Shown piece after piece: positions 16,079 through 32,881 of a DNA stretch of 64,000 bases. Source of the stretch: a bacterium (GTDB taxonomy: Bacteria > Patescibacteriota > Microgenomatia > UBA1406 > GWC2-37-13); the NCBI GenBank assembly GCA_021833625.1, contig JAKBEU010000001.1, positions 372,001 to 436,000 of the forward strand, written 5' to 3'. Under the pieces are notes generated by a model. It had not been told where the DNA came from. It saw only the letters and a list, made by a program, of their open reading frames with translations, and did no database searches. Numbering within the stretch: position 1 is the stretch's first letter; each line of letters opens with the position of its first letter. Position numbers and translations under genes: made by a program.

Positions 16079-16816
16079 ATGTGCACAACAGCAGCAAAAC
16101 AAATCAATTCGTCCTGGACACTTCTTAAGACACGGGACCCCGTTTCATGGATGCGATGGGACGATGAAATAAAACTGTATGCAACTCAAAGTGACGTATT
16201 CAAAAAATGGATCGTACAAAATCCGGACCCTCATGAGGACGGATATTACGGAGGCATCAACGAAAAAGGGGTTGCCTTCGTTTCGACATTTGTCCATGTT
16301 GCCGAAAATCAGATTTCCTATATCCGTAGGCCGTATATCCGCCTTATTCTTGATGCCGCGTCTGCTTCCGAAGCTGTCGCGATAATAAAATCTTTCACTC
16401 CGCGGATAGGCGGGAACATGTTTGTTGCAGACGCGAAAGAATGTTACGGGATTGAGGGAGTGCCTGAAAGGTATTATATTGAAAAATTAAATAAACCAGC
16501 AGTTAAGACAAATTATTTCCTTCATCTCAAAAACCATAATCTGGGATTTGATACGGATCCTCTTTTTGAAAATTGGACTACCGACCATCAAGAACGTGCG
16601 GAGAAGCTTATCAAATCGACGCATACAATTGATGATTGTAAGAAGCTTCTTTCCGACAGGGCAAACGCAAAAACGAAAACTGCCATTTGTACCCTCCCTT
16701 CCGAAGATCCCTGTTTCACCCATTCCGCATTTATTTTTGACACGAAAAATAAGTGTACATACTACTGTCAGGGAAATCCGTTCACGAATAAGTTTAAAAA
16801 ATACGGATTTGACTAA
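16079..16816 (+). CDS. Ntn-hydrolase-fold amidase/acyltransferase (C45/NRDE-like)
   Basis: About 245 residues from the ATG at 16079. This start is decisive: it gives M-C-T-T, so removal of Met exposes Cys as the N-terminal nucleophile of the Ntn fold. Supporting motifs: TRDPVSWM (the Arg-Asp pair of the oxyanion region), GGINEKGVAFV, GGNMFVADAKECYGIEG and KTNYFLHL, the pattern of acyl-CoA:6-APA acyltransferase-like and linear-amide hydrolases. A longer frame to 15923 would bury the Cys inside the chain and overlap trmB. It should cleave a linear amide or acyl group in the cytosol; substrate unknown. It ends 4 nt inside the convergent sortase gene. Confidence 0.75.
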   Translation: MCTTAAKQINSSWTLLKTRDPVSWMRWDDEIKLYATQSDVFKKWIVQNPDPHEDGYYGGINEKGVAFVSTFVHVAENQISYIRRPYIRLILDAASASEAVAIIKSFTPRIGGNMFVADAKECYGIEGVPERYYIEKLNKPAVKTNYFLHLKNHNLGFDTDPLFENWTTDHQERAEKLIKSTHTIDDCKKLLSDRANAKTKTAICTLPSEDPCFTHSAFIFDTKNKCTYYCQGNPFTNKFKKYGFD

Positions 16817-17523
16817 TCGCTTACGCGTACCGCAAAGACAAGAAGACGTTTGAATGTCGTCCCCATAGGCCAACAGGTCTGAAGAGTGAGAAATTCCTTA
16901 TTCGTTTTCCGGGTCAGATATTCAACCTGTGAAGGATCGACAATTGTCTTATCCACCACCCTATACACATATCGTTCCCCTTTATAAAAGATATTTATCT
17001 CGTCATTTTTCTGCAACTTATCAAGGAGGTAAAAAATGGCGTTATACGCTCCTACATTCCAGAAATAATCCGTAGAGTGGGCAAACAGGAAGATGTGTCC
17101 TCCTTCCCCCGGAAATGCAGTGCCAAGGGCATGAGCAACACCTTGTTTGAGTGCTGCTGAATATTCTTTTTCATTTGCACTATCGACGTTCGGAATTACT
17201 TTTGCATTCGCGCCGATTTTAGGAACCACAATACTGAAATCCGTATTTTCAGGAATAAGGACATCAGCTGTTTTTCCTGCTGCAACAAGACGCGTCAGAC
17301 TCCCCTTGTTCCCCGTCTTTTCCTGGAGTGAGAACTTTATTTCCTCCGGTGTTGCAACGACATATACCTTGTTGGTTATGGAGTTATATAAATAACGCAG
17401 TTCCTGATGTACCGGTTCGTAGAGCGTTTTACCGATCATAAAAAGTGAAGAGAGGATAAGGAAGTTCCCCAAGGTGCGCAACAGTAACACCGAAATATAT
17501 TCTTTCTTATGTGTTTTATGCAT
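16813..17523 (-). CDS. Sortase-family transpeptidase
   Basis: 236 residues. An N-terminal membrane anchor (~12-32, VLLLRTLGNFLILSSLFMIG) and a C-terminal sortase barrel. The catalytic triad is visible: His in IFLFAHSTD, Cys in LTLQTCWPMG, Arg in FKRLLVFAV. The type resembles class D/E sortases with VVPKIGANAKVIP at the start of the barrel. Sortases join surface proteins to the wall through a C-terminal LPxTG-type signal; I see no such signal on the giant proteins of this window, so its substrates probably lie elsewhere. tRNA-Arg(CCT) lies 10 nt upstream on the same strand. Confidence 0.9.
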   Translation of the reverse strand: MHKTHKKEYISVLLLRTLGNFLILSSLFMIGKTLYEPVHQELRYLYNSITNKVYVVATPEEIKFSLQEKTGNKGSLTRLVAAGKTADVLIPENTDFSIVVPKIGANAKVIPNVDSANEKEYSAALKQGVAHALGTAFPGEGGHIFLFAHSTDYFWNVGAYNAIFYLLDKLQKNDEINIFYKGERYVYRVVDKTIVDPSQVEYLTRKTNKEFLTLQTCWPMGTTFKRLLVFAVRVSD

Positions 17524-17629: not shown

Positions 17630-18232
17630 ATGTTGCTCGTCATCGAGGGCATTGATGGTGCTGGCTGCGAAACTCAGGCTAATAGCATTGTTCAAGAGCT
17701 CAAAAAACAATCCAAACCGGTCTATTATATTAAATTTCCCCATTACGATACGCCTGTTGGGAAGATGATCAAAGAATTTTTATACGACAATAAATCCCTT
17801 TCGGTTGACGAACAGTTTTTGCTGTATACGCTCCAATTCGTATTCGACAAACGGGATATAGAACAAAAAATGAAGGAAGGAATCGTCGTTGCGGACCGCT
17901 ACTTCTCAACAACCCTTTGCTACCAAACGCTCGAAGGATTTGACGAAAAAAAAGCACTTTCATTTGCACAGGATTTTGGTATCATTAAGCCCGACGCAAT
18001 TTTGTATCTCGACGTCCCTCCAGAAACAGCCATCAAATGGAAATTCGGGGAAAATAAACCCAAAAATTTCCGGGAAGAAGATCATGTGTTCATTAAACGG
18101 ACGTATGAAAAATATGATGACCTGGTAAAGCGGAACGTCTGGGCAAAATGGATCCGTATACAGGGCGAACAGGCAAAACAAAAAGTTACGGAAGAGATTT
18201 TGAAGGTAATTAATACATTATACCAATTTTGA
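17630..18232 (+). CDS. tmk: Thymidylate kinase-like protein with altered P-loop
   Basis: 200 residues, the usual Tmk length; phosphorylates dTMP to dTDP. The ATG at 17630 starts directly at the P-loop strand MLLVIEGIDGAG. Other motifs fit: VVADRYFSTTLCYQ (DR of the dTMP site), KPDAILYLDVPPETAIKW. The P-loop reads GIDGAGCETQ, so the Walker A Lys is Cys13, which should weaken phosphate binding unless another residue substitutes. The downstream ndk genes follow after 2 nt, so the operon makes dTTP from dTMP. The leaderless promoter sits on the palindrome at 17615-17624. Confidence 0.85.
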   Translation: MLLVIEGIDGAGCETQANSIVQELKKQSKPVYYIKFPHYDTPVGKMIKEFLYDNKSLSVDEQFLLYTLQFVFDKRDIEQKMKEGIVVADRYFSTTLCYQTLEGFDEKKALSFAQDFGIIKPDAILYLDVPPETAIKWKFGENKPKNFREEDHVFIKRTYEKYDDLVKRNVWAKWIRIQGEQAKQKVTEEILKVINTLYQF

Positions 18233-18234
18233 TT

Positions 18235-18816
18235 ATGGAACAGACACTTATCATCCTCAAACCGGATGCAATAAAACGGGGACTTGTCGGGCTCACCATT
18301 GAAACGTTTGAAAAAACAGGGCTTAAGTTAATGGCGGCAAAAATGGTCACCCCTGATGAACAGGTCATAAAAAATCATTATCCCGGAACCAAAGAGTGGA
18401 TAACCGAAATGGGAAACAAAACGCTCTCTTCCTTTAAGCAGGCAGGAAGAGACGTAAAAAAAGAGATGGGAACGGACGACCCCTACAAGCTTGGATCTTT
18501 TGTGTACGAACGTTTAATAAAGTACTGGCAGGAAGGACCAATAATCGTCATGGTGTTTGAAGGACCAAATGCAGTTGCGGTATGTCGCAAATTAAGAGGA
18601 CACACCATTCCCTCCCTTGCCGATGCAGGGACAATACTTGCTCAGTATTCTTTTGATTCGTCCACCCTTTCCTCATCTCTCGACCGAGCCGTCAAAACAT
18701 TTATTCACGCATCAGGAAGTGTGCAGGAAGCAGAGCGAGAAATAAAATATTGGTTTAAAGGCGCACAGTTTGATGTATATTCCCGGGAAGTTGACACATT
18801 ATATTTATCAAAATAA
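18235..18816 (+). CDS. ndk: Nucleoside-diphosphate kinase, first of a tandem pair
   Basis: 193 residues from the ATG at 18235 (an in-frame TTG lies 6 nt earlier). Phosphorylates NDPs through a phospho-His. Motifs: IILKPDAIKRG (ATP-site Lys), FIHASGS with the active His (family NxxHGSDS). It is ~45 residues longer than a usual bacterial Ndk (140-150) because of an insertion around residues 45-90, before the conserved VMVFEG strand. The usual PGTIRGD loop reads AGTILAQY, losing the Arg that contacts the phosphates, so this copy may be less active or work with its neighbour. It follows tmk by 2 nt. Confidence 0.88.
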   Translation: MEQTLIILKPDAIKRGLVGLTIETFEKTGLKLMAAKMVTPDEQVIKNHYPGTKEWITEMGNKTLSSFKQAGRDVKKEMGTDDPYKLGSFVYERLIKYWQEGPIIVMVFEGPNAVAVCRKLRGHTIPSLADAGTILAQYSFDSSTLSSSLDRAVKTFIHASGSVQEAEREIKYWFKGAQFDVYSREVDTLYLSK

Positions 18817-18818
18817 CT

Positions 18819-19403
18819 ATGAAAAAACAAAAAGCACTCATCATCATCAAACCGGACGCAGTTCAACGGGGCTTAAGCGGAACTATAGTAAAACGGTTCG
18901 AACAGGTCGGTCTGACCATTATCGGATTTAAATTCCAAAAAGCGGACGAAAAAACCGTTATCGCACACTATCCAAGCACTGATGCATGGTTTGAAAAGGT
19001 GGGAAAAAGGACGCTCAACAATTGCCAGGTAAAAGGAATTGACGTAAAAGACACATTTAAAACGGATGATGCAATCACAATTGGAAAACAGGTCAAACAA
19101 TGGCTTATCACCTACTTTCAGGAATCCCCTGTCCTTGTGATGGCGGTTGAAGGATATGAAGTAATTGAAATAGTCCGTAAATTGTCCGGAAACACCATTC
19201 CCGTCCTGGCAGCCCCCGGTACCATCCGTGGAGATTTTTCGCATGATTCTATAGACTTAGCAAACGAAACATGCCGCCCGCTTCGCAATGTCATCCATGC
19301 TTCAGATGCGGTTGAAGACGGCGAAAAAGAAGTTGCTTTGTGGTTTACGCCGGATGAACTATTTTCTTACGTCCGTTGCGACGAGAAGATAATGTTCCCG
19401 TAA
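18819..19403 (+). CDS. ndk: Nucleoside-diphosphate kinase, second of a tandem pair
   Basis: 194 residues. Same long form as the preceding gene but with canonical motifs: IIIKPDAVQRGL, AAPGTIRGDFS (Arg present) and NVIHASDAVEDGE with the catalytic His. It starts 2 nt after the stop of the first copy. The shared insertion shows that the pair arose by duplication of an already long ancestor, and the sequences have diverged widely since. Most likely the main NDP kinase; a hetero-oligomer with the first copy is possible. Confidence 0.9.
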   Translation: MKKQKALIIIKPDAVQRGLSGTIVKRFEQVGLTIIGFKFQKADEKTVIAHYPSTDAWFEKVGKRTLNNCQVKGIDVKDTFKTDDAITIGKQVKQWLITYFQESPVLVMAVEGYEVIEIVRKLSGNTIPVLAAPGTIRGDFSHDSIDLANETCRPLRNVIHASDAVEDGEKEVALWFTPDELFSYVRCDEKIMFP

Positions 19404-19420: not shown

Positions 19421-19972
19421 TCACACTATTTTTTCTATTTCTTTATTAAGAAGCGCAAGGTCTCCGTTGTTCTCTATTTTTATGTCGGCAAGCTGCATAC
19501 AGGCGAGCACCTGCTGTCCGCTTTTATTTTGTTTATCTCCCTGATCCCGACAGTCCACTTTTTCAAACGATTCCCAGTCTTTTGGATCCCATGGTTTTCC
19601 GCGCTTGATGACCCGATCGTAGCGAAGTTCGCGTTTGGAATCGATTGCAATAAGATAGAAATGGGGCAATGTACGTAAATATTCAACCTCTCCCGGATTG
19701 CGGATACCTTCAATGATAACGTTTTCTACTTCTTTTTCTTTCAGAATTGCAACCGCCCGCTTTGCAAGTGCCCCGTCCCCTTCCCGCATGCGCAGCTTAT
19801 CTCCGATATCCTGGAGAGTCGTGCGGGTAAAGTTCGTAACTCCACTTTTTTTCAACTCATCATGAACGATAGTTGATAGCGAAAAGGAAGCAAATCCTTT
19901 GTTTTTAATTAAGTACTCAGCAACAACTCCTTTTCCGCAGGCAAGCGGACCGACAACGCCGATAATTTTCAT
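19421..19972 (-). CDS. P-loop nucleotide kinase (dNMP kinase / CoaE-like)
   Basis: 183 residues from the ATG at 19972. P-loop GPLACGKGVVAEYL (residues ~8-21), a SFSLSTIVHDELKKSG acceptor-site region, and VIIEGIRNPGEVEYLR as a Walker B-like strand, all in the style of dephospho-CoA kinase and phage deoxynucleoside-monophosphate kinases. Because the window also has an archaeal-type dephospho-CoA kinase (43307-44320), a nucleotide substrate is more likely than dephospho-CoA. It is the last gene of the long operon starting at 31503, 16 nt after the prepilin peptidase gene. Confidence 0.7.
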   Translation of the reverse strand: MKIIGVVGPLACGKGVVAEYLIKNKGFASFSLSTIVHDELKKSGVTNFTRTTLQDIGDKLRMREGDGALAKRAVAILKEKEVENVIIEGIRNPGEVEYLRTLPHFYLIAIDSKRELRYDRVIKRGKPWDPKDWESFEKVDCRDQGDKQNKSGQQVLACMQLADIKIENNGDLALLNKEIEKIV

Positions 19973-19988
19973 ATTATTTCGACTCTCA

Positions 19989-20795
19989 TTATATCCCATA
20001 TATTCTTTTTATTCCCTGCAATAATACATCCCCCCACAATGCAACAATTATCATCCCCAATATCAGAAACGGTCCGAACGAAATGCTGCTTTTCAGCTTC
20101 TTCTTTTGTGAAAGAATGAGGGCTATTCCAACAACTGCGCCGATGACAAATCCGAAATACAAAGCTAAAAATCCCTTTCCCATGCCAAATAAGAACCCGA
20201 TAATGAATGCAAGTATCACATCCCCCAGTCCCATCGCCCGTTCCCTGCTTATCAAATAAATAAGTCCTATGGGAAGTGCGACCATTACCCCGGAGATGAC
20301 GTCAAACCCAAGGGAAAAAAGGGTAGCGCGCTCAATCAGTTTAAGCAGAAAGACAAAGACAAAAAAGGTAAGTTGAACAGAGTCGGAAATTAGCTGATAT
20401 TTTAGGTCGGAAATAAAGATAATCCATGCGGACGATACTATCCCCCAGTATAGTACGATATGCAGCATATCAGCCTGTGGTGACAACAAAACGACCAGAA
20501 TAAACAAACAACCGGTCAGAAACTCGACTAAAGGATATTGAAAAGACAGTTTCTTGTGGCAATAGCGACATCTCCCTCTCAAAAAAAGGTAAGAAAACAC
20601 GGGAATAAGATCCATGAAAGACAACGTTTTCTTGCAATAGTCACAATGGGACCTTCCTGAAAGCGGTTCATCGTGTATGAGTCTGTCAGCTACCACATTA
20701 ATGAAAGATCCGATAGCTAAGCCCATGAAACCAGCAAATAAAAGTGCAAAAAAAGATAGGTCAGAATAGGTATTTAATGGATATAAGGGTATCAA
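19989..20795 (-). CDS. pilD: Prepilin peptidase (type IV pilin leader peptidase, A24)
   Basis: 268 residues, a polytopic membrane protein. It cleaves and may N-methylate type IV prepilins. N-terminal cytoplasmic loop with the zinc Cys pairs (CDYC and CRYC), the family motif GSFINVVADRL, and the two catalytic Asp in ISDLKYQLISD and MGLGDVILA (GxGD). About eight hydrophobic segments follow. Its ATG overlaps the stop of the rhodanese-like gene by 4 nt. No pilin or PilB/C/T gene is in the window. Confidence 0.93.
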   Translation of the reverse strand: MIPLYPLNTYSDLSFFALLFAGFMGLAIGSFINVVADRLIHDEPLSGRSHCDYCKKTLSFMDLIPVFSYLFLRGRCRYCHKKLSFQYPLVEFLTGCLFILVVLLSPQADMLHIVLYWGIVSSAWIIFISDLKYQLISDSVQLTFFVFVFLLKLIERATLFSLGFDVISGVMVALPIGLIYLISRERAMGLGDVILAFIIGFLFGMGKGFLALYFGFVIGAVVGIALILSQKKKLKSSISFGPFLILGMIIVALWGDVLLQGIKRIYGI

Positions 20796-21454
20796 TTTGA
20801 ATCAATTAAACTGTTCACATCTATTTTTCCCCACAAAGGCTCTGGGATCCAGATATTCTGGAAGTGCCGGAATTCATTCCATCCAACCGCTAACAGTTTC
20901 GCGGAATATCCCCTCTTCTTTAATTGACTCATAACCTCTTGCTGTCTCTGAAAGGAGTTGCTTGGTCCATATACGACGATTTGTTTTGCTTTATCCAGCC
21001 GAATTTTTCCCAATACGCCATCTATTGCATAGTACGCAACATTTCCGTCCCCTATATGATATATGGGGGCAGAAATAGCACCTTTAATGTGCTCTTTTTT
21101 ATACTCATCATCACTCCTTATGTCAAGAAAAGAAATGCCCGCATTTCCTTCTTTTATCACTTGCACCACATCAAGTGGGTCAAAATAGTTTCCACTCCCC
21201 ATCGGCGCTGTTTTTGCCTGTTGCGGTAAAGAAAATACTGACACACTCTTGGAAAGACGTGTCTTCAGTTGTTTTCCATACCAATGGTAGCCTAACACAC
21301 TTATGCCTACCAAGCTGAAGCTCACAATGAATAAAATCACTGGTCTAGCATACCGAGAGATATACTTTGCTGGAGAAACTTGTGACAATAATGTTTTTTT
21401 CTTTTCTTCCTCGTCCACTGGTCGTTTTATTGATCTTTTTATTGATTTATTCAT
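20792..21454 (-). CDS. Membrane-anchored rhodanese-like domain without catalytic Cys
   Basis: 220 residues: a basic N-terminus, one membrane segment (~37-56, PVILFIVSFSLVGISVLGY) and an extracytoplasmic rhodanese fold (~90-205; FLDIRSDDEYKKEHIKGAI and the C-terminal VGWNEFR). The active-site loop that normally starts with Cys after the IVVY strand reads IVVYGPSNSFQRQ, so the sulfur-accepting Cys is missing and the domain is probably a binding module. The gene overlaps the permease (8 nt) and the prepilin peptidase (4 nt) and so is tightly coupled to both. Confidence 0.8.
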   Translation of the reverse strand: MNKSIKRSIKRPVDEEEKKKTLLSQVSPAKYISRYARPVILFIVSFSLVGISVLGYHWYGKQLKTRLSKSVSVFSLPQQAKTAPMGSGNYFDPLDVVQVIKEGNAGISFLDIRSDDEYKKEHIKGAISAPIYHIGDGNVAYYAIDGVLGKIRLDKAKQIVVYGPSNSFQRQQEVMSQLKKRGYSAKLLAVGWNEFRHFQNIWIPEPLWGKIDVNSLIDSN

Positions 21455-23531
21455 ACCTCAATGCATTCAATGCTGATATCTTCTTTGCACGCTGAGCGGG
21501 ATAAATACCGGTCACAACCCCTACTACAAACGAGCAAGCGAGGATAAATAACGTAAAATTGAGCGGAATATAGGTGAGATCAATATACCCTTGACCCTGA
21601 GAAAATGCAATAAGTGAGACTATCAATGAAAGACCCTTCCCGACTAAAAATCCAAGCAGCAAGCCTCCAAGACCGCCTGAAATACCCATAATCATAGCTT
21701 CGGCAAGAAAAAGGTCTTGAACCTCTTCACTTACCATTCCCATTGTCTTCATGCCTCCGATTTCGCGGGTACGTTCAAGAAGCGAGACAGTAAGAGTGTT
21801 AAACATACCCAAAGCCGCCACACCAAGGGCAACAAGACCCAAAATTGCGAGGATAAAACGAAGATTGGCAAAGAGTGACTCTATTTGTTTTACAGTATCG
21901 GCGGTGCTGTTTGTGCGAAATCCAAGTGTCTCTATACTTTTGCGGACATTCGCCATATCGCCAACATTCTTCAGAACAATTTTAAGCTGGGAGACATTGG
22001 GAATGGTAAGTTGTTTTATGTCGGAATACGGAATATAAAAATAGGTATTATTCGGATCATCCACAACGCCGATTATTTTATAGTCAATCGGTTCGGACAG
22101 CGCCTTGCCCTCCACTGACGGAAGAAGGCTTTTTCCAATAATGAAAGATGACGAAAAAATTGTCCCTACTGCTTTTTTTTCGGAAATAGATAGTAAATTA
22201 AGGAGCCCAGAGGATACGACAGCTTCCCCCTTTGGCTTTACTGAAAAAGTGAGCTGATCTTGTGTTTTCTTCACCGTAGCACCACCGGAAGCTTGAAGTG
22301 AGACCGTTTCGATTCCTGCAGAATCGCTTGATAGGACCCTCGCATCAAAAGAGGAACCTGCTGAATCGCTTGCTACTTCAAGTTCAGCGCTCCCCGTTGA
22401 CTCCCCCAGAACCTTCCCCTCCGAAATAGCAATAATCGGCTTTGTTTGCACAAGCCGCTCTTGAATACACCCCGATTTCCATAACTGCCCTCCCGTTTCG
22501 CTTATTTGCGGAATAAGCGCCATATCTGCTCCTTTTTGAAAAAGGAGTACCTGCCCGAGAACCCATCTACCCGTATATATTCTTCGTATGGCGTCGTATC
22601 CGGCACGTCCATAGGAATCAAAGGGTCCATATTCTCCTCCCCAGTAAAGATATCCTTCATACCCACCCTCAATACGCGTAGTGTATCCTAATAACTTTGA
22701 AGAAATATCACATCGTTCCCATACTGGCACCGATTCTCCAGGAAGTACATTGAATTCCTGTCGTAGCAATGTCCTTTTTTCATTAAGGAGAGCATGCTCC
22801 ATCTCCGTTTCCGCTCCTGCAACTGCACCACCCTCTTTTGATGCTTTTGTAGAATCAAACGATTGGTTATCGGAATACAAAGATCCTTTCTTCGCTTGTA
22901 TCTTCATTGCATCCAAATAACTTCGGGGAGCTGCATAAACTAAGACGTCGGTTGCGGCTTTATTATAAGTAATTTTCCCAACTACCGATACAAGGGGAAT
23001 TGCTTTTTGTACGCTTGATATTGCACTAATCTTGTTATAGACTGTCCTATCAAGCCGAAGAGAAGTGGTCTCACTTGAAGACACGTCAACCATTTTTAAT
23101 TCATCAAGAGATGCAACACGAGAGATAACTAGCCTCTCAATGCCGTATCCAAGAGAAAGTAAAAGGACAATAATTCCGATACCGACCGACATCCCAAATA
23201 TAGTAATGAACGAACGTGTCTTTTTTGAAAGGAGATTTTTGAAAGCAATATTGATAAGATAGCTTCGTTTTACTTCAGATGGCCGTAGTCCATCGAGCCT
23301 TGAACTGAGCAACTGCTCATAATGCAGCATCGTTTTTCCGGCAGGAAAGTTTATTTTCCGGATATAGATGCCCACTATCGGCAAAAAGGTAAGACGGGCC
23401 GCAAGTTTGCTCAGAACAAACAGTACGAGAAGAAGAAAAAACGAGGCAAACAAATACATCGTGCGGAAAATATTTCGCCAAAATTTCAAGGAAAATATTT
23501 TTTTTGCAAAATCTATTATTTTCTTTTTCAT
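21447..23531 (-). CDS. MacB/FtsX-type ABC transporter permease
   Basis: 694 residues. It has an atypical ~100-residue N-terminal part with its own hydrophobic segments (~25-50), then the standard layout: KTRSFITIFGMSVGIGIIVLLLSLG as TM1 (~108-130), a large extracytoplasmic domain (~135-560) and three C-terminal TMs (FILAILGLVALGVAALGMFNT..., MGISGGLGGLLLGFLVG..., LFILACSFVVGVVTGIYPA). MacB-type permeases act as mechanotransmitters that drive export of proteins, peptides or lipids. The ATPase is encoded 3 nt upstream, and the giant Kelch protein before that is a plausible client. Confidence 0.88.
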   Translation of the reverse strand: MKKKIIDFAKKIFSLKFWRNIFRTMYLFASFFLLLVLFVLSKLAARLTFLPIVGIYIRKINFPAGKTMLHYEQLLSSRLDGLRPSEVKRSYLINIAFKNLLSKKTRSFITIFGMSVGIGIIVLLLSLGYGIERLVISRVASLDELKMVDVSSSETTSLRLDRTVYNKISAISSVQKAIPLVSVVGKITYNKAATDVLVYAAPRSYLDAMKIQAKKGSLYSDNQSFDSTKASKEGGAVAGAETEMEHALLNEKRTLLRQEFNVLPGESVPVWERCDISSKLLGYTTRIEGGYEGYLYWGGEYGPFDSYGRAGYDAIRRIYTGRWVLGQVLLFQKGADMALIPQISETGGQLWKSGCIQERLVQTKPIIAISEGKVLGESTGSAELEVASDSAGSSFDARVLSSDSAGIETVSLQASGGATVKKTQDQLTFSVKPKGEAVVSSGLLNLLSISEKKAVGTIFSSSFIIGKSLLPSVEGKALSEPIDYKIIGVVDDPNNTYFYIPYSDIKQLTIPNVSQLKIVLKNVGDMANVRKSIETLGFRTNSTADTVKQIESLFANLRFILAILGLVALGVAALGMFNTLTVSLLERTREIGGMKTMGMVSEEVQDLFLAEAMIMGISGGLGGLLLGFLVGKGLSLIVSLIAFSQGQGYIDLTYIPLNFTLFILACSFVVGVVTGIYPAQRAKKISALNALRYE

Positions 23532-23534
23532 ACC

Positions 23535-24329
23535 TTACAAGTGTAATTTTTCCAAAAACTTCGGATCGCGGACATTGGCTGTATCCTCACCAGCCCCTCC
23601 TTTTTTTCCGAAGGTAATCGTTTTATTTGCATTTTTTGGCTCATACGTCTCCACTACTTCACCATCCACCATATGAAAAATCTTTGTCCCATATCGCAGA
23701 TATTCCAAATCATGTGTAACCATTACGACCGTTTTCCCAAGCTTTACCAACCCCATGAATGTTTGTAGTAATTCTTGTCCCGAAACAGTGTCAAGATTTC
23801 CCGTCGGTTCGTCCGCAACAATCATTAACGGATCAAGCATGAGGGCACGGGCAAGACTGATTTTTTGCTGTTGTCCCGAGCTCAAAGTTGTTGGGACATA
23901 TGCTGCCCATTTTTCCATGCCGACATGGGTGAGAACCTCATGGGCCTTTTTTTCTATTTCTTCTTCAGGATAATCGAGTAAATGGAGGGGAAACATCACG
24001 TTTTCAATGACGTTAAGCGCAGAAATCCATAGTGGTTGTTGATAAATAATACTTACCTTGTGACGACGGTAGATAGAACGCTGATCCTCTGTCATCGCAT
24101 ATACGTCCTGTCCTTCCATTAATACTTTGCCTGAAGTGGGATTTTCCAGTCCAAGCAGACAATGGAGGAGTGTTGATTTTCCGCATCCTGACGGTCCAAA
24201 TATAATTCCAAACTCTCCCTTATCAACTGTTATATTAATCCCTTTCAATATCTCAACCGCCCCATCCCCGATTGAGAATGACTTTCGCATATCCCTAATT
24301 TCCAGTAATTTGTTGCCATTTATTGCCAT
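23535..24329 (-). CDS. ABC transporter ATP-binding protein (LolD/MacB type)
   Basis: 264 residues. Walker A GPSGCGKST, Q-loop YQQPLW, signature LSSGQQQKISLARAL, Walker B LMIVADEPTGNLD, H-loop VMVTHD, all intact. A ~35-residue C-terminal extension ends in KFLEKLHL. The pattern EPTGNLD is typical of the MacB/LolD/FtsE group, and the permease follows directly. The ATG is 1 nt from the stop of the giant Kelch gene, so ribosomes can pass from one to the other. Confidence 0.93.
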   Translation of the reverse strand: MAINGNKLLEIRDMRKSFSIGDGAVEILKGINITVDKGEFGIIFGPSGCGKSTLLHCLLGLENPTSGKVLMEGQDVYAMTEDQRSIYRRHKVSIIYQQPLWISALNVIENVMFPLHLLDYPEEEIEKKAHEVLTHVGMEKWAAYVPTTLSSGQQQKISLARALMLDPLMIVADEPTGNLDTVSGQELLQTFMGLVKLGKTVVMVTHDLEYLRYGTKIFHMVDGEVVETYEPKNANKTITFGKKGGAGEDTANVRDPKFLEKLHL

Positions 24330-24330
24330 A

Positions 24331-27300
24331 TTATCTCAGTATAGACGTTCCTTTCAGGAATCCAAATGTCTTTGATAAATTATCAATAACCAGGTTGAGG
24401 GCGTCTTTCGTCGATTTCGGAGTAATAATAACAGTATCGAGTGATTGTCCAACGTTCCCCGCCTTATCCTTTGAGAGCGTATGTAGGTGATATATTTTTG
24501 AAGGACTTAAGCTTGTTATCGTCACGGAATGATTCATAGTAAGATTGGTATCTTCCTGCGTTGTCTGATTATACGTCGTGCCCGTTCCCTGTCCATATTC
24601 CACCTGGGTTGTTCCCGGCTCGTCAGTGTCCCATGTTACGACTATTTGTGCCTGTGCATTGTCTCCTACGCCAATAATGGACGTTTCCACACTCAGGTTT
24701 TGAATTTCCGGAGGTCGAACGTCGTTTGCCGTCTTCAGATTCCGCGTCTCTGTTTTAGCTTCATTTCCTGCTGAATCCTTCCCTTTTATCAAAATGGTGT
24801 AGTCAGTATTGTCAAGTAGATTTTTTAATATTACCTCATGATTTGTTTTAAGCACAAGACTAATGTTATCCTGCGTGAGTTGAGGAGTTTGTGTTGGATA
24901 GTAAGAAACTATAGTGCTTGCAAGCGTATTTGTTGTCCACAACAATCGCAGTGTTGCCGTCGGCATTCCGACGACTTGTTGTGTCCGTAAGTTCATTATC
25001 TTAGGAGTCGGAAGAGTAGTGAATGTATAGTCATCGCTGTAATAGGTGTTTGCTTCGTCATCCTCTGCGGCAACACGAAGATGGTATAAGGATCCCTCAG
25101 TAAGCGTGTCAACTTCAATTGTATAAGCTGTTTCCGACTTTGACGTCGAAATTCCTTTTAGGCTCCCATACGAAATAGTTTTCCCATATTGAACGGTTGC
25201 CTTGATTGCTCCCTTTATTGTAAATGTCACTTCAGCTGAGTTGATATTTATCCGACTAAACTTCACACTAGACACAAATGGAGCTGGATTTGTCGAGAAA
25301 CTAAGTTCGTCGGAATGGCCGGTGTTTCCATCTTCATCTGTCCAGATGGCTTGATAGTAATATGTGGTCCCTGGGTCAAGACTATTTAATGCGATGGAAT
25401 GAGAAGAAACCTGCTCGGAAGAACCCGCTTCATTATCATACGAACCGCTCTTTTTTCCATACTTTACAAACGAATTGCTCTTACGATTGGTGGACCAATT
25501 AATAAGCGCTGATTTCGTTTTAACTGTTGCAGATTGGCTCGCAACAAGTTCAGGTGCAACACGCCATTTCCCATCAGGTAATAAATGAACTGTTGACGAA
25601 ACAGGAGAACACTGATTCGTTGTGTTACACGCCTTCATACAGTAATAATTTTCCACCTGGTTAAGATTCACGTCTATATATGATGTTTGTATTGTCTGAG
25701 CAACATACCCAAAGATGGAGCTATCGGTTGTACAATTTGCTCCAGAAACTGTCGATCTGTATACCTGATAATATGCCACTCCCGCGGAGCCACTCGATTC
25801 GGGAGCATCCCACGATAACGCCAGACGCCACTTACTTGTTTCTTTTATTGAGACGTCCGCAATGTCCGTACTTGTCGGCACTCCCGGTGCTGATGTGTCT
25901 GCATAAAAATCTGCTGAGGCATACGAATTATATGAAATATTCCCCACTTCATCTTTTGTAACAATGTAAATTGTGTTCTTGCCTACCTGGTTTGCATAAG
26001 AGCTTGAAGGAAGATATGTCTGCGCTCCAATAAGCGTGATATTGTTTGCGGTTGGGAGAGCATTCACCGAATAATAATACTTAAGACCCGCTTGCGTCCC
26101 TCCAAAAAAAGCCGGAGGTGTCCATTTGAATCCAAATTCCCCTGAAGTACTATGCTCCGGAGTTACAATTAAGTTTTGAACCACACCTGGTGCAGTCTCG
26201 AGAAGTTGATAAGTAATCGTTTTATACACAGCAGCAAAGTTTCCTGCGACGTCTTTCGTGCGAAGATAAAATGTATTATTCCCCTCCTGATATGCCGAAA
26301 TACTTGCAATAGATGTGTCGCCTATACATTGCTCCACTGATCCGATAGCTCCCGTTTTATAACAATAACTCACGTCCGGAGTTCCTCCACTCCAAGCAAA
26401 AGTATACGCATTGATGTTTGTGGGACCAGGAGGATCAACCGTCATTGTTGTTGGATTATCCGGTTTTTGATCATTAAACTTATAAACAAAACCAAGGTAT
26501 TCAGAAGGACTTATGTTCCCCGCGTTGTCCTTTGTCTTTAAGCGAAGATAATATGTCTGTCCTGCGGTTAGGTCTTTTGGCGCGTAATTTGTTGTTGTCT
26601 GATATGTTCCTTCGGTAATAATATCGGCGCTTTCAGAAGCGCCAAAATAGACGTAGTATCCAGCAATCCCAGATCCGTTTGTTCCATCTGTAGCTCCTCC
26701 CATTGCGTCTTCCAAGGGCCATTCAAAATAGGGGGAAGGCATATTGCCCCAATTACCTGAGGTAAGCGTCGCACTTTTTGTCGCAGTTGTGTAGCCCGTA
26801 ACAACAGACGGGTTTGACGGAGCATCTATATCCTGATAATAGGAAATGGAATAGTCTCTAATAACTGGGGAATACTTTCCATCTCCGGATGAAAGGTCAA
26901 ATCTTACTTGAATATACCGTTTCATCGAGGAATTGACCTTATACGTTCTATTTGAACCAATAATCTTTTCATCCGTAACTGCCTGCCAATCGTCCCAAGT
27001 ACTGTTGTCGGAAGATGTCCTCGTGTATGCGGTCATCGATGTATTGTTGGCCGGCACATACCCCACATTCAAGTTTGCAAAGCGATAAACCGGTCCAAGA
27101 TCTATTGATCCGGACGTGTAACTTCCCGATTCTTGGAATGAAGTATTTGCCGTTTGCATAATGTAAGAATATAACCCATTGCTGTAGGTATTCGTTCCCG
27201 CTCCTGCAATAACAAGCATGCTTTCCGTTCCAACAGGAGCCGCAGACCCACCCGTATAAATTTGTGCCGGCGCATTTGCAATAGTGGACCAGGAGTTCGT

Positions 27301-30300
27301 TGAGAGGGAGTAAGAATAACAACCAACCTGATTTCCCCCTCGACAGGCATAGAGAAGATCTTCTCCCCCATCCACTAAAAAGCCATCGTTATAGATGGTG
27401 GCTCCCGCAGGCAAATCGGCAACAATCGCGTCATTCCAAGTTGGCGTCCCTGACAGGGGGCCATATCTGTAAAAACCTAGTTGGTTATTCCCACGAAGTG
27501 CATAGATATAGTCATTTTTTATGACCAAATCGGACCCATATGACAAGGAGCTTGGAGCATTTGGCACTATCGCTGCGCTCCATTTATGAGCAGAGGTTCC
27601 CTGCGTATCAAACTTATACATTGCAGAGCTTCCTCCTCCGGGTGTCCAGAAAATATAGCGCGATCCATCATATACCATCGTAGTCCCCGTATTGGAATCA
27701 ATGGGTGGCGGATCAAGCGTTTCTTCTGACCATGTATCGGTCGCGATATCGTACACGAAAAGTTTTCGATAATACGAACTTGTCGTTGCGTATATCTTGT
27801 TGTGAGTTGACTCATACACCAATTTTCCTCCGTTATAGAATCCTGCGGGAGCATCTGCAAGATTTGTCGTTTCGCCCGTGGTTGAATTATATCGGATAAA
27901 AAGATTGTCAAAATTACCCCTGGTGAGATAATAATTGTTTTCATCCCCTTTGATTATATCGGCACCATAATTAAACGTTCGTACATCATTTCCCCTATAC
28001 CAACCTCCGAAGAGGCCGACATTAGGAATCATCCACGATTGTTTTGCAATATTATATGTATACAGCTGACTTCCTCCGGCACCCCTCATTACATATAGCG
28101 TACCATTCACGTTCCGAATCGTACTTCCCGCAGAAATTCCCAAAGGAGCATCAGGCAAACTACTCCACGTGCGTGATGCAATATCATATTTGAAGAGAAG
28201 AGTAGTTCCCCAACCGGCTATGTAATAAATCGCATTGGTTTTCGCATCATATTGTATGTTCGAGCCGGCATTCGCCAATGCGGGGAGATTTGGTAGTTGG
28301 GACCACGTGTTGTTATCCGGATTGTATGAAGAAAACCCCGATCGCCCTCCTCCTTGCAAAGCATAGAACGTATTGTTCCCCGCATCAAATGCGAGATCCG
28401 CACCATCAGATATATTGTTATTCACTTGATTGTAGGGAGCTCCAAAATCAACATTTGCCAAAACTTCCCAGCTATCCGCCTGGGTATCATAACGCATAAA
28501 GGCATCATCATTATTTCCTTTAAGGGCATAAATATAATGACTACCATCAAATGCAAGAGATCCTCCATAGCTGATGGGTTGCGGAGCATCTGCTGCAGCC
28601 TCATCGCTCCACGTATCGGTTGCAATGTTATAGCTCCAAAAACTTGTCGTATTCCACCCTTTTGTTCCGTATAAATATCCAGCCGGACCCTCAATAGTGT
28701 CGTCTCCATAGTATACGGTCGAAGGAAGATTTCCCTTGGTTGTCCACGTGTCGGTATTTATGTCATATTCATAAAACGACTGGCTTCCATAGCCCCTGTT
28801 TAAATATAGCTTGTTTGTTGAGGCAACATAAGCAAACCCGGATCCATAATAAATGCCTGAAGGCGCCACACTTAACCGTTGTTGTTGCCAAAATCCCGGT
28901 TTTGAGGACAGTGAAATCTGATCTCCTACGGAAGAGGTGTTGGTTGAGGTGCCATCAGAAAAATCCGCTGAACTCGTCTTTGTCTCGGTCTGAGGAGGGG
29001 AAACGCCGGCATAAACATAAGAGAATCCCGTTGTTGCGGTAGAGATATTCCCGCTCGTATCTTTTGTTTTTAATCTCAAATAGTACGTCTGTCCTTTTAT
29101 CATTGGTACGGTGACCAAATAGTTTGTATTTGTCTTATAAACGCCCAGCGTTTCCGGATCAGCTCCGGGAGTAGTTCCGAAATAGACATAATATCCTGCA
29201 ACAGCAGTTTGACCATCTGTCGCCCCTGACCACGTAAAGTAAGGGGATGTGTATCGATAGCTCTGGCCTGATGTGATGCTTATTCCTCCTGCTGCTTGAG
29301 AAACCCCCGTAAACGATGAGGGATTAGTTGGCGCAATCTCATCTCCCACATAGTTTAAAGTGATTGAATCCACTGTGGGAGTTTGAACTCTTCCTGCTGA
29401 AGCATTCAAGGTGGCGCGGACTTGAAAGTAATTGCCAGGAGGGGAGGAAATAATGTCTCCGTTCACCGGTTGCCATGTACTCCAAGACGTCTTATCAAGA
29501 CTACTCCTCGTTTCAAAGCTCACCGTTGAATTTCCTGGAGTTGTTATCGAAGAAGCAAGCGTAAGCCAGTTTTGGACGTACCCCGTTTCAATAACATTAC
29601 TTGTCCAAATCCCTGTAGCTACATAATTATATTGCGAGGGTGTGTATTGATGGAGCCATATAAGGTTTTGGCCACTAATGGAATACATGTTCCCGTTTGT
29701 ACTATCGATGGTAAGAGATCCGCCATTATACGGTCCAATATCATAATAATATGCTCCCTGCAGATAAGGAAGTCTGCGCCAAGAGTTGGTAGAAATGATG
29801 TATTCCCAAAAGTCTTTTTTATAATATCCTGCCTGAAAGAATATCTTTCCTCCATAGTAGCGCATATCCGTTCCCCAGTTGGGAGCAAAAGGGAGACTGT
29901 TGACAGCAGTCCATGCATCATTTCCTATCGTGTATTTTAGCAGCGTTGATGTCCCATAACCTCCGGAATAATAAATATCTGTCCCGTCGGTTGTCATGCG
30001 TGCCCCATATCCTGCTTCTGCGTTATCCGGTAGATCGGCGACGCTTAGATCGTCCCACACATCGTTTGCTATCTTATAACGCCAAAAGGAGCGTGAATTA
30101 CCACCCCGCGTTGCATAAATAAAACCTCCACTTCCCGGATAAACCAAGGTTCCGCCGTAATATGTCGAAGCGGGCGTAACCGCGGTAAGAGTCGTCCACG
30201 AATCCAGAGCGGTATCATATCTATAAAATGCATTTGTGTTACTTCCTCTAAAGAAATAGAGACTACTTCCCACGACAACTCCCTTTGTATCATCGTTAAA

Positions 30301-31503
30301 ATTCCCGGGCGCAGCACTGAGACTTGTCCAAAGCCCCGTCGCAATCTCATACTTATAAAATAGCGCTGAGTTATTCCCTCTCATGTAATAGAGAAATCCA
30401 TTGTAGTATAGGAGGTCAGCTCCAGAACCCGGAGTATTCGGAAGATCCGTTGGTCCGAGAAAAGTATCTGTTGTCGGATGATATTTCCAAAAATCATATT
30501 GGCCGTTTCCTCTGAATACATATACATAATCATCTGCCGCATTATAAACTGTTCCAATATATCTTGTGGCCTGAGGGGTATTGGCAAGTGTCGTCCAAAT
30601 ATTGTCAATAATGTCGTATTTGTAAAAAGTCTGGGTTGCCTGATCGCGCGTAATAAATACTTCGTGCCCCCTTATCGAGGCGCTTTTATCTTCGCTGATT
30701 GTTGCCGGAGCTGCAGCAAGAGCTGTAATACCATCGGTCATTGTCGTATACCACACGTTCGCAGCAATGTTATATCGATATATTGTTGTTGTTCCATTTC
30801 CTCTTGTTGCATAGAGATTTCCATTGTAATAAACGAGTGTTGCTCCTGTCCCCATGGTTGCAGCAGGCACTGACATAGTAGACCACGTGTTTGTCGCGAC
30901 CGTGTATTTCCAAAAATCGGTTGTCGAAGTCCCTCGCAGGCAGAATATGTTCGTATTGTCAGTTGTACACGCACCTCCTCCATATACGAGATCGGGCATA
31001 TTCGCAAGAATTGTCCACGTATCCGTCGCAATAGAATAGCGCATGAAGTCTTTTTGATATCCTCCAAACTCCGCATAAATATACCCCCCAAGAGAGATAA
31101 GCTGCGCTCCCGGATAACTGAATTTGGGGGCAGGAGCAAGTGTTTGCCACTTGTTTTCTGTGGGAATATAGCGAGCGAATCGGTTGTCAGCATTTTGCAG
31201 TAAATAAATATAATTTCCGTCAGAGACAACTCCCGCCTGATCTCCCAGAGCAATATTTGGTGTCTTAAAAGAGCGAACTCCCCACAATCCGTCCGGTTTC
31301 AAACTGAGTTTTCCTTCTTGACTTGCAGTATCAGTGCCGTCTTGTATTCCTAATTCAAAATCAACTCGAGAAGTAATGGAATGCGAGGCTGCTGATACCG
31401 GTTCTTGTTGATGAGGCAAATATAAAAAATAAACAAAGAAGGTGGTGAAGAGGTATATGATTAATGAGAAAATTCGCAGAATGGTTATTAGTTTATGTTT
31501 CAT
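24331..31503 (-). CDS. Giant Kelch-propeller / FN3 surface protein (2390 aa)
   Basis: I use the ATG at 31503; an in-frame TTG at 31521 is less likely. Domains: signal/anchor (~5-32), Kelch-like beta-propeller 1 with repeating W-x-x-L-x-x-x-P and FYRYD-type motifs (~60-620), a beta-sandwich (SFETRSSLDKTSW, ~640-725), an FN3-like module ending YLRLKTKDTSGNIS, then a second copy of the same set (propeller ~860-1440, sandwich with TRTSSDNSTWDDW, FN3-like YLRLKTKDNAGNIS), and finally 5-6 FN3/PAP-N-like domains (~1660-2385; DPGTTYYYQAIW, TLTEGSLYHLRVAAED). It is an exported adhesin or glycan-binding scaffold. No LPxTG or lipobox is seen. First gene of a six-gene unit with an ABC exporter and prepilin peptidase. 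Confidence 0.88.
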   Translation of the reverse strand: MKHKLITILRIFSLIIYLFTTFFVYFLYLPHQQEPVSAASHSITSRVDFELGIQDGTDTASQEGKLSLKPDGLWGVRSFKTPNIALGDQAGVVSDGNYIYLLQNADNRFARYIPTENKWQTLAPAPKFSYPGAQLISLGGYIYAEFGGYQKDFMRYSIATDTWTILANMPDLVYGGGACTTDNTNIFCLRGTSTTDFWKYTVATNTWSTMSVPAATMGTGATLVYYNGNLYATRGNGTTTIYRYNIAANVWYTTMTDGITALAAAPATISEDKSASIRGHEVFITRDQATQTFYKYDIIDNIWTTLANTPQATRYIGTVYNAADDYVYVFRGNGQYDFWKYHPTTDTFLGPTDLPNTPGSGADLLYYNGFLYYMRGNNSALFYKYEIATGLWTSLSAAPGNFNDDTKGVVVGSSLYFFRGSNTNAFYRYDTALDSWTTLTAVTPASTYYGGTLVYPGSGGFIYATRGGNSRSFWRYKIANDVWDDLSVADLPDNAEAGYGARMTTDGTDIYYSGGYGTSTLLKYTIGNDAWTAVNSLPFAPNWGTDMRYYGGKIFFQAGYYKKDFWEYIISTNSWRRLPYLQGAYYYDIGPYNGGSLTIDSTNGNMYSISGQNLIWLHQYTPSQYNYVATGIWTSNVIETGYVQNWLTLASSITTPGNSTVSFETRSSLDKTSWSTWQPVNGDIISSPPGNYFQVRATLNASAGRVQTPTVDSITLNYVGDEIAPTNPSSFTGVSQAAGGISITSGQSYRYTSPYFTWSGATDGQTAVAGYYVYFGTTPGADPETLGVYKTNTNYLVTVPMIKGQTYYLRLKTKDTSGNISTATTGFSYVYAGVSPPQTETKTSSADFSDGTSTNTSSVGDQISLSSKPGFWQQQRLSVAPSGIYYGSGFAYVASTNKLYLNRGYGSQSFYEYDINTDTWTTKGNLPSTVYYGDDTIEGPAGYLYGTKGWNTTSFWSYNIATDTWSDEAAADAPQPISYGGSLAFDGSHYIYALKGNNDDAFMRYDTQADSWEVLANVDFGAPYNQVNNNISDGADLAFDAGNNTFYALQGGGRSGFSSYNPDNNTWSQLPNLPALANAGSNIQYDAKTNAIYYIAGWGTTLLFKYDIASRTWSSLPDAPLGISAGSTIRNVNGTLYVMRGAGGSQLYTYNIAKQSWMIPNVGLFGGWYRGNDVRTFNYGADIIKGDENNYYLTRGNFDNLFIRYNSTTGETTNLADAPAGFYNGGKLVYESTHNKIYATTSSYYRKLFVYDIATDTWSEETLDPPPIDSNTGTTMVYDGSRYIFWTPGGGSSAMYKFDTQGTSAHKWSAAIVPNAPSSLSYGSDLVIKNDYIYALRGNNQLGFYRYGPLSGTPTWNDAIVADLPAGATIYNDGFLVDGGEDLLYACRGGNQVGCYSYSLSTNSWSTIANAPAQIYTGGSAAPVGTESMLVIAGAGTNTYSNGLYSYIMQTANTSFQESGSYTSGSIDLGPVYRFANLNVGYVPANNTSMTAYTRTSSDNSTWDDWQAVTDEKIIGSNRTYKVNSSMKRYIQVRFDLSSGDGKYSPVIRDYSISYYQDIDAPSNPSVVTGYTTATKSATLTSGNWGNMPSPYFEWPLEDAMGGATDGTNGSGIAGYYVYFGASESADIITEGTYQTTTNYAPKDLTAGQTYYLRLKTKDNAGNISPSEYLGFVYKFNDQKPDNPTTMTVDPPGPTNINAYTFAWSGGTPDVSYCYKTGAIGSVEQCIGDTSIASISAYQEGNNTFYLRTKDVAGNFAAVYKTITYQLLETAPGVVQNLIVTPEHSTSGEFGFKWTPPAFFGGTQAGLKYYYSVNALPTANNITLIGAQTYLPSSSYANQVGKNTIYIVTKDEVGNISYNSYASADFYADTSAPGVPTSTDIADVSIKETSKWRLALSWDAPESSGSAGVAYYQVYRSTVSGANCTTDSSIFGYVAQTIQTSYIDVNLNQVENYYCMKACNTTNQCSPVSSTVHLLPDGKWRVAPELVASQSATVKTKSALINWSTNRKSNSFVKYGKKSGSYDNEAGSSEQVSSHSIALNSLDPGTTYYYQAIWTDEDGNTGHSDELSFSTNPAPFVSSVKFSRININSAEVTFTIKGAIKATVQYGKTISYGSLKGISTSKSETAYTIEVDTLTEGSLYHLRVAAEDDEANTYYSDDYTFTTLPTPKIMNLRTQQVVGMPTATLRLLWTTNTLASTIVSYYPTQTPQLTQDNISLVLKTNHEVILKNLLDNTDYTILIKGKDSAGNEAKTETRNLKTANDVRPPEIQNLSVETSIIGVGDNAQAQIVVTWDTDEPGTTQVEYGQGTGTTYNQTTQEDTNLTMNHSVTITSLSPSKIYHLHTLSKDKAGNVGQSLDTVIITPKSTKDALNLVIDNLSKTFGFLKGTSILR

Positions 31504-31554
31504 TGAGTGTGATACCAACAAAGCAGCTATTTCCCCATTTTAAACTCATACAAA

Positions 31555-31609: not shown

Positions 31610-32881
31610 TTATAGTATAGAGGGAAGAATGATATCGCGTTCTCCCAATGGCCCAATTATGGCACAGTTGAGTCCGGAAAGAACAAACAGTTGCTTTGCA
31701 ACGTCAACTATTTCTTTCTCCGTTACTCCCATCAGTTTTTCAAGCGTCTTTTTTGTGTCAACCATTTCCCTCTCAAGCGTATATTTTGATCCGAACATTG
31801 TTGCGATATTCATCGAATCTTCGAGATTGAGAAGATAACGCCCCTTGAGAAGCTCTTTCGCTTTTTTTATTTCCTCAGTAGTAATCTCCCCTTTTGCAAT
31901 TTTCATATGTTCTTTCAAAATGACACTGACCGCTTCCTGTATTTTTTCCTTGTCGTTTCGAATGCCCGCCTGCGTTACAATACTTCCCGTATCCGCATAT
32001 AATTCACGTCCAGTTGAAATATAGTAACAAAGTCCTCTTCTTTCACGCACTTCCATGAACAGACGTGAAGACATCCCGCCTCCAAGTACTGTCGCTAACA
32101 CTTGGAGAGCATATTTACGCTCATCTTTGAATGAAAATGCGCGAAATCCGACACACATATGAACTTGTTCCGTCTGTTTATTTTTTATATAGAGCTGCGC
32201 ATTTCTTTGTGAGCCATTATACCCCTCATATCGTGCCGTTTTTTTATCTTTCCACGCTCCGAATTTCCTCTCAATTTCAGGAAGATAATTTTTTCCGGCA
32301 AGGCCTCCCGCAAGTACGACAACCGCATTACTGGGGTGATAAAGCTTTTCAATATAATCGGCAAACGTCTTTCTGTTAAACGTATTTACTGTTTCTTTTG
32401 TGCCTGCAATATCGTATCCGAGTGGGCTCCCCTTATACATCACTTCTTCAAAAATATCCCCCACTTTTCGTGCAGGCATATCCTCATACATGTTGATTTC
32501 CTCGATAATTACGCCCTTTTCGCGACCGATTTCTTCCTCGTCAAGAAGAGGGTGCAAAATCATATCCGACAACACATCCAAAAGCGTATGCGTATATTCG
32601 GTAGTTGCCTTTATCCAATACCCCGTATGGTCTTTTGACGTAAAGGCATTAAACAAGCCGCCAATGCCTTCTATTGCTGAGGATATTTCAAATGAATTCT
32701 TATATTTTTTAGATCCCTTAAATGCCATGTGTTCAAAGAAATGAGCAATCCCGTTATTGTCTTTTCGCTCATAACGGCTCCCCGCCCCTATCATAACAAG
32801 CGCGGTCACTGTCGGGAATGACTCCGTATCAACAAGAATAACTTTGAGTCCGTTGGAAAGAGTGTGAGTCGTTGTTTTCAT
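31610..32881 (-). CDS. M16-family zinc peptidase (processing-protease like)
   Basis: 423 residues, the size of a single-chain bacterial M16B peptidase. The inverted zinc motif HxxEH is present in AHFFEHMAFKG (residues ~46-50), with the downstream Glu in VIIEEINMYEDMP as third ligand. The second half carries the usual GMSSRLFMEVRERRGLCYYI motif (R and Y bind the substrate carboxylate). Degrades peptides or processes exported proteins; no signal peptide is visible. A TGTATAAT box lies 8 nt from the ATG. Confidence 0.93.
   Translation of the reverse strand: MKTTTHTLSNGLKVILVDTESFPTVTALVMIGAGSRYERKDNNGIAHFFEHMAFKGSKKYKNSFEISSAIEGIGGLFNAFTSKDHTGYWIKATTEYTHTLLDVLSDMILHPLLDEEEIGREKGVIIEEINMYEDMPARKVGDIFEEVMYKGSPLGYDIAGTKETVNTFNRKTFADYIEKLYHPSNAVVVLAGGLAGKNYLPEIERKFGAWKDKKTARYEGYNGSQRNAQLYIKNKQTEQVHMCVGFRAFSFKDERKYALQVLATVLGGGMSSRLFMEVRERRGLCYYISTGRELYADTGSIVTQAGIRNDKEKIQEAVSVILKEHMKIAKGEITTEEIKKAKELLKGRYLLNLEDSMNIATMFGSKYTLEREMVDTKKTLEKLMGVTEKEIVDVAKQLFVLSGLNCAIIGPLGERDIILPSIL

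Follow-up and report, generated by a model that had tools for sequence, protein, structure and literature searches.

A giant exported protein with a constant C-terminal tail is encoded beside a type VII ABC transporter in bacteria of the Candidate Phyla Radiation

We analyzed a window of 64,000 nucleotides from a bacterium of the Candidate Phyla Radiation (CPR; GTDB phylum Patescibacteriota, class Microgenomatia), which spans positions 372,001 to 436,000 of the forward strand of contig JAKBEU010000001.1 (assembly GCA_021833625.1). The genome comprises 1.10 Mb in 3 contigs; unless another record is named, positions below are those of the window. At 19421-31503, six genes lie on the minus strand; neighbors are separated by 1, 3, or 16 nt or overlap by 8 or 4 nt, a tight packing that a preliminary description of this DNA had reported correctly. 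The first three genes encode a giant secreted protein (hereafter, the giant), an ATP-binding cassette (ABC) ATPase, and a permease. This trio recurs in CPR relatives, where the giant keeps a constant C-terminal tail and varies in its head.

The gene run and its core

The core of the run contains the following features.

24331-31503, minus strand: giant secreted protein, 2390 aa from ATG, with an N-terminal signal, two kelch-type beta-propeller regions, Ig/fn3 domains, and a conserved C-terminal module (open reading frames, Pfam)
24334-25530, minus strand: constant module at the giant's C-terminal end, 399 aa, comprising fn3/Ig-like domains and the tail (common to 59 aligned sequences)
24334-24435, minus strand: C-terminal tail of the giant, TVIITPKSTKDALNLVIDNLSKTFGFLKGTSILR (predicted helix at module residues 375-388; stripe A377/V381/L385/F389)
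23535-24329, minus strand: ABC ATPase of FtsE/LolD/MacB type (Pfam; Walker A/B and H-loop legible in the sequence)
21447-23531, minus strand: type VII ABC permease, 694 aa, with an extra N-terminal helical region, a MacB_PCD-type ectodomain, and an FtsX C-terminal domain (Pfam, model)
22428-22796, minus strand: extra beta-rich insert of the permease ectodomain, about residues 246-368, weakly SH3b-like (model, profiles)

The giant may alternatively start at a TTG at 31521, upstream of the ATG at 31503. In Pfam it matched kelch and fn3/purple-acid-phosphatase-N families, and the products of the next five genes matched ABC_tran, FtsX plus MacB_PCD, Rhodanese, A24, and AAA_17/18 (a small kinase), in agreement with the MacB-like identity proposed earlier for the ABC pair. 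The giant had also been called an adhesin, and we regard it as a putative one. Heads differ among the 11 giants that we scanned with Pfam (the window's and ten others), which carry kelch propellers, LamG_3, EPTP, DUF2341, an FGE-sulfatase-like domain, or Ig domains; at the C-terminus, all 11 share an fn3 or purple-acid-phosphatase-N region. Of 64 giants, 63 end in the tail motif TPKxTxxALxLVxxNLxxxFGFL, 62 of them recognized by pattern and L116 by eye; in the remaining one, L084, the C-terminal end is unreadable. Across 59 aligned rows, the tail stripe consists of A377 (59 of 59), V381 (57), L385 (56), and F389 (58), an i+4 series along one helix face, and positions 375, 383, 386, and 387 vary freely. 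AlphaFold2 modeled the constant module as fn3-like sandwiches plus the helix, and a Foldseek search with this model matched fibronectin-type tandem domains.

Neither a C-terminal membrane segment nor an LPxT[GASN] motif occurs in the last 150 residues of any of the 64 giants, and a lipobox is absent from all 44 giants with a complete N-terminus. Because of these absences, the tail is the sole shared candidate anchor: to judge from sequence, nothing else common to the giants could keep them at the cell after signal cleavage. Of the 44 complete giants, 40 have a hydrophobic stretch at the N-terminus, in many cases with an AxA-like site after it; if uncleaved, this stretch could itself be an anchor. 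A sortase gene at 16813-17523 in the window, and others near some relatives' cassettes, prompted us to consider anchoring by sortase; it was rejected, as the sorting motif was found in none of the 64 giants. As a separate observation, the giant (24331-31503) matches phage family phrog_12615, whose function is unassigned, in 9 stretches (E 4.6e-76), these being phage proteins with the same kind of repeat.

The ATPase matched ABC_tran with an E value of 6.7e-32, its motifs GPSGCGKST, DEPTGNLD, and THD are legible, and by its sequence it is a putatively active ABC partner of the type VII superfamily. The permease belongs to this known superfamily (MacB/Lol/FtsX fold). Its C-terminal domain is of FtsX type, a MacB/Lol-type ectodomain lies between its first and second core transmembrane helices, and FtsX and MacB_PCD matched 11 of 11 permease members. 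A type VII fold is predicted from the permease model (mean predicted local distance difference test score, pLDDT, 84.9), in which residues 83-694 match chains of MacB, YtrF, LolE, and FtsX, with MacB and YtrF as the best matches (PDB 5gko, Z 23.8, rmsd 9.2 over 377 residues; 9o9x, Z 23.6, rmsd 4.7 over 385 residues). The N-terminal 80 residues and the ectodomain insert lie beyond this fold and distinguish the long form of the permease from MacB. From its sequence, the insert was suspected to be a cell-wall-binding SH3b domain; the Pfam match to SH3_3 was weak (2 of 20 members, best E 0.0057), and a PDB profile search with the insert returned nothing useful. If it were SH3b, the insert could, speculatively, hold the cell wall. 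Equivalog models did not identify the pair as FtsE and FtsX (FtsE, 182.7 bits against a cut-off of 264.85; FtsX models, under the cut-off).

Conservation of the cassette and the adaptor slot

We searched with the permease across 37 genomes of relatives, the window's included: most of them encode short relatives, and a minority long ones. In 12 annotated stretches from relatives, the order was giant, ABC ATPase, permease wherever the DNA extends far enough; L040 and L041 stop before a giant could be visible. An alignment of 11 permeases then served to scan the GTDB species genomes. In total, 156 stretches encode a relative, and the best 80 of the 156 yielded 79 permease loci, from records labelled Roizmanbacteria, Woesebacteria, Shapirobacteria, Collierbacteria, Daviesbacteria, WWE3, Moranbacteria, WS6, Paceibacterota, and others. 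Fourteen of these loci end too near upstream to judge the giant, leaving 65 readable ones. A giant with the same C-terminus lies directly upstream of the ABC gene, or of a fused ABC-permease gene, in 62 of the 65 (59 found by script; L072, L075, and L090 added by hand), with one small gene in between at some of them. The ATPase and permease, separate in the window, form a single fused chain in 7 of the 79 loci, and at L110 the giant and permease are not separated by any visible ABC gene. Two giants precede one transporter at L061, L120, L156, and L158. At L154 and L160, tandem arrays of two or three tail-bearing giants lack an adjoining transporter and are possibly served by one elsewhere. In L101, a run of N had created the false appearance of a natural permease-giant fusion (3982 aa), and a short fusion in L118 (giant N-terminus plus permease C-terminus) is degenerate or misassembled.

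We also examined co-occurrence in 379 genomes. A phylum search for giants matched 174 of them at E <= 0.001; weak matches are probably ordinary fn3 domains, and the co-occurrence was therefore limited to E <= 1e-30 for the giant, with a limit of E <= 1e-45 for the permease. With these limits, both chosen after the lists were seen, 66 genomes contain giant and permease, 5 the giant only, 7 the permease only, and 301 neither (Fisher p 3e-59, uncorrected for kinship). Together with the 62 of 65 readable loci, these counts strongly support the earlier proposal of a dedicated unit of giant and ABC transporter. Distant giants from the phylum search bear related tails, e.g., SVxDIIxxSLxxxLGWL, and are partnered by ABC genes and permeases of approximately 400 residues that have no ectodomain insert.

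The slot taken by the giant is usually that of an adaptor. Two other type VII (MacB-type) ABC pairs in the window's genome each have an HlyD/MacA-type adaptor directly upstream. Among 20 short, ordinary type VII loci from relatives, a MacA-like adaptor lies directly upstream of the ABC gene in 19 and a giant in none; in the 20th, L188, the DNA ends within the ABC gene. Beside the giant-type permeases of the 79 loci we found no adaptor, the lone match (L083) being part of a second ABC locus. In a maximum-likelihood tree built from 66 permeases (26 taken from the 50-row alignment A5, 16 short giant-associated, and 24 adaptor-associated), the adaptor group is split off by a branch with a Shimodaira-Hasegawa-like approximate likelihood ratio test (SH-aLRT) value of 100. 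In passages of a study of Gram-positive bacteria, many MacA-like adaptor genes are described in operons with macB homologues (PMC5985334). The plainest reading of these gene orders and sequences is a partner change, from adaptor to giant, in the same gene slot.

Several smaller observations concern the surroundings of the cassette. A gene for an M16 peptidase, possibly a processing partner, lies before or behind the cassette at nine of the 79 loci (L046, L048, L053, L055, L058, L060, L061, L082, and L093) and at 31610-32881 in the window. Between giant and ABC gene, L100, L104, L105, L106, L108, and L111 encode a membrane-anchored protein of 129-138 aa with a small fn3-like outer domain, of which the L202 copy weakly matches the C-terminal profile. 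A protein of approximately 100 aa, perhaps a winged-helix regulator, is encoded immediately before the giant at several loci (among them L047, 870-1175, and L053, 1651-1950). Some record labels are doubtful. The nearest match to L085, labelled Anaerolineae, is Pacebacteria L086 (permease 83% and giant C-terminus 90% identical), probably a binning error, and the label candidate division TM6 of L105 (CP011212.1) and L202 may be wrong, as a genome search points to the window's class.

Proposed docking of the giant and alternative readings

At the level of sequence, the evidence comprises a constant tail, variable heads, the pairing of the genes, the takeover of the adaptor slot, and the lack of any other recognizable anchor. 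We lean slightly toward a reading in which the core of the run is a three-gene CPR cassette, the giant's tail docks on its dedicated permease, and the ABC complex acts as both anchor and motor. The giant would leave the cell by its N-terminal Sec-type signal and fold outside the membrane into a long chain of beta domains with a variable head. The fn3-like run, ending in a short amphipathic helix, would dock on the outer domain of the permease, where the docked tail would play the part of MacA on MacB, or of EnvC on FtsX. The ABC complex would anchor the giant and use ATP to push, tense, or release it, and the head might make contact with other cells.

Tail and permease vary together. In a set of 23 loci, long, insert-bearing permeases go with the six TPK-type tails (FGF; FGV in one), and short permeases with the non-TPK tails where a permease is visible (L215 shows none). 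Identity between giant C-termini correlates with identity between permeases (Spearman 0.87; 741 pairs, 39 loci).

Several points weigh against docking. Shared descent confounds both the tail-permease match and the identity correlation, because the long permeases form a single clade; the match amounts to one split in the tree and is therefore not independent evidence for binding. The modeled tail helix has low confidence (pLDDT about 46-57), as expected for a free peptide, although such values are no proof of one. There are also exceptions to the pairing. At L101 and L113 the ABC pair lacks a giant, L118 is the broken fusion, and giants without an adjoining ABC gene occur at L128, L135, L144, L145, L148, L149, L154, L160, L226, and L227. 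Of the 12 genomes discordant for co-occurrence we inspected ten, seven with the permease only and three with the giant only. Six of the permease-only regions (L219, L220, L221, L222, L223, and L225) have neither giant nor adaptor adjoining, with little upstream DNA in L223; in the seventh, L224, the permease was not visible in the open reading frame call. No ABC gene was seen in the three giant-only regions, and in L228 the module does not lie at the protein's end.

The nearest rival to docking is that the giant is a passing substrate: after Sec export, a LolCDE-like ABC complex would extract the amphipathic tail from the outer leaflet, once per molecule, and so free the giant to the wall or the medium. 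The permease does resemble LolC/LolE as well as MacB, the conserved tail positions are hydrophobic and aromatic, one transporter can be common to several giants, and the giants without a transporter of their own resemble substrates served in trans. We nevertheless consider this rather unlikely, given that the giant occupies the slot of a fixed partner, the adaptor, and not that of a substrate, that a search of the window's genome yielded a single tail-bearing protein and no second, and that we found no second anchor on the giant to keep it after release. LolCDE itself has a related permease fold, and the cassette would similarly target an amphipathic anchor at the outer leaflet; however, the substrates of LolCDE are lipobox lipoproteins, and none of the 44 complete giants has a lipobox.

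Small compounds are frequent cargo of MacB-type pumps, so the ABC transporter might instead export or sense such a compound, with the giant merely co-regulated and the adjacency reflecting co-expression of envelope genes. This is improbable in light of an adjacency that persists over many lineages as other neighbors change, a tail that stays constant as heads vary, and an adaptor that is missing exactly where the giant is present.

The closest known systems include type VII ABC transporters with an outer partner. MacAB-type pumps (MacB with MacA; YknXYZ and SpMacAB in Gram-positive bacteria) also encode that partner directly upstream, but it is an HlyD-type adaptor rather than a giant surface protein, and in MacAB the ATPase and permease are fused, whereas those of the cassette are mostly separate genes. 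FtsEX-EnvC is likewise a type VII ABC mechanical transmitter with an outer protein partner (PMC7668044). That partner activates a peptidoglycan hydrolase; in contrast, no domain of the giant points to such a role, and the cassette ectodomain is of MacB/Lol type. The ABC superfamily and the giant adhesion-domain proteins of CPR bacteria are already known. Those of Absconditicoccaceae and Patescibacterium are very long, exported, and contain fn3, concanavalin, or DUF2341 domains, and the passages on them describe neither an ABC partner nor a common C-terminal tail (PMC8080830, PMC13059738, PMC11809585). An fn3 protein, SEML1_0890, is listed, in a passage on a cultured epibiont, among its essential envelope proteins (PMC10633639). 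Our search of the open-access literature, with subscription papers and preprints outside its scope, found neither the tail nor the ABC pairing described.

Companion genes and biological meaning

Three further genes complete the run.

20792-21454, minus strand: Cys-less rhodanese-like protein, membrane-anchored; optional, lineage-limited companion (Pfam, alignment)
19989-20795, minus strand: prepilin peptidase (A24), sole copy in the genome; optional companion, likely serving distant pilin genes (Pfam)
19421-19972, minus strand: small nucleotide/nucleoside kinase-like protein; probably outside the cassette (Pfam AAA_17/18)

The gene-order comparison proposed in the preliminary description upheld the giant, ATPase, and permease as neighbors, but not the companions. 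A rhodanese gene lies directly behind the permease at 7 of the 79 loci, and a prepilin peptidase gene lies within two genes of the permease at 7, in both cases mostly in Roizmanbacteria-type records; L049 has a rhodanese before the giant. These counts are slightly too low because downstream DNA is short in 8 of the 79 loci (at least 1,500 bases in the other 71). The rhodanese had been called inactive, and its catalytic-loop cysteine is indeed absent from all nine sequences that we examined, the window's and eight homologues. The peptidase was likewise named correctly, with an A24 match, both CxxC pairs kept, and D130 and D192, which we take to be the catalytic aspartate pair, invariant in four rows. 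That A24 match is unique in the genome. Pilin and PilB/PilT genes lie at 137-149 kb of contig C2 and the operon lies at 392 kb, approximately 250 kb apart. The peptidase's place here is apparently lineage-specific operon sharing, because the sole A24 enzyme presumably serves the distant pilin cluster.

That the entire run is a pilus-linked assembly unit, with parts processed by the peptidase, is highly improbable: the peptidase and rhodanese genes overlap each other and the permease end and recur together with the cassette in several Roizmanbacteria-type loci, but each is found at few of the loci, the pilin genes lie elsewhere, type IV pilus systems encode pilins and assembly ATPases with the unit, as this operon does not, and the giants' N-terminal hydrophobic signals are ordinary. 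The suggested pilus link is thus not borne out.

In relatives, the small kinase goes with nucleoside diphosphate kinase genes and not with the cassette. A tandem pair of genes that we named as such by sequence reading lies at 18229-19403 in the window, convergent with the operon's last gene, and in L049 and L082 such genes again accompany the small kinase. The preliminary description had placed one strong promoter ahead of the run. A promoter-like site is present at 31583-31555 (TTGATA-17-TATACT, matching 10 of 12 consensus positions); its strength lacks support, since such sites are no commoner than in shuffled sequence (1 against a shuffled mean of 1.9; in a second count, 26 against 26.2).

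Tentatively, the cassette may define a distinct class of type VII ABC machines in the CPR, whose outer partner would be a giant that combines a swappable head with a constant tail for docking. It would then be an ATP-driven surface arm whose head evolution exchanges to suit different partner cells, derived from an adaptor-type ancestor by a switch of partner and spread widely over the CPR. Such a class would widen the range of type VII ABC partners beyond adaptors, lipoproteins, and hydrolase activators. The tail and permease provide a marker for finding surface proteins that differ among lineages, and the constant tail with its dedicated ABC machine is a concrete, testable candidate for how ultra-small episymbiotic bacteria place and hold giant surface proteins. 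The arrangement suggests a way in which ultra-small cells keep in place or shift the proteins that may let them grip other cells.

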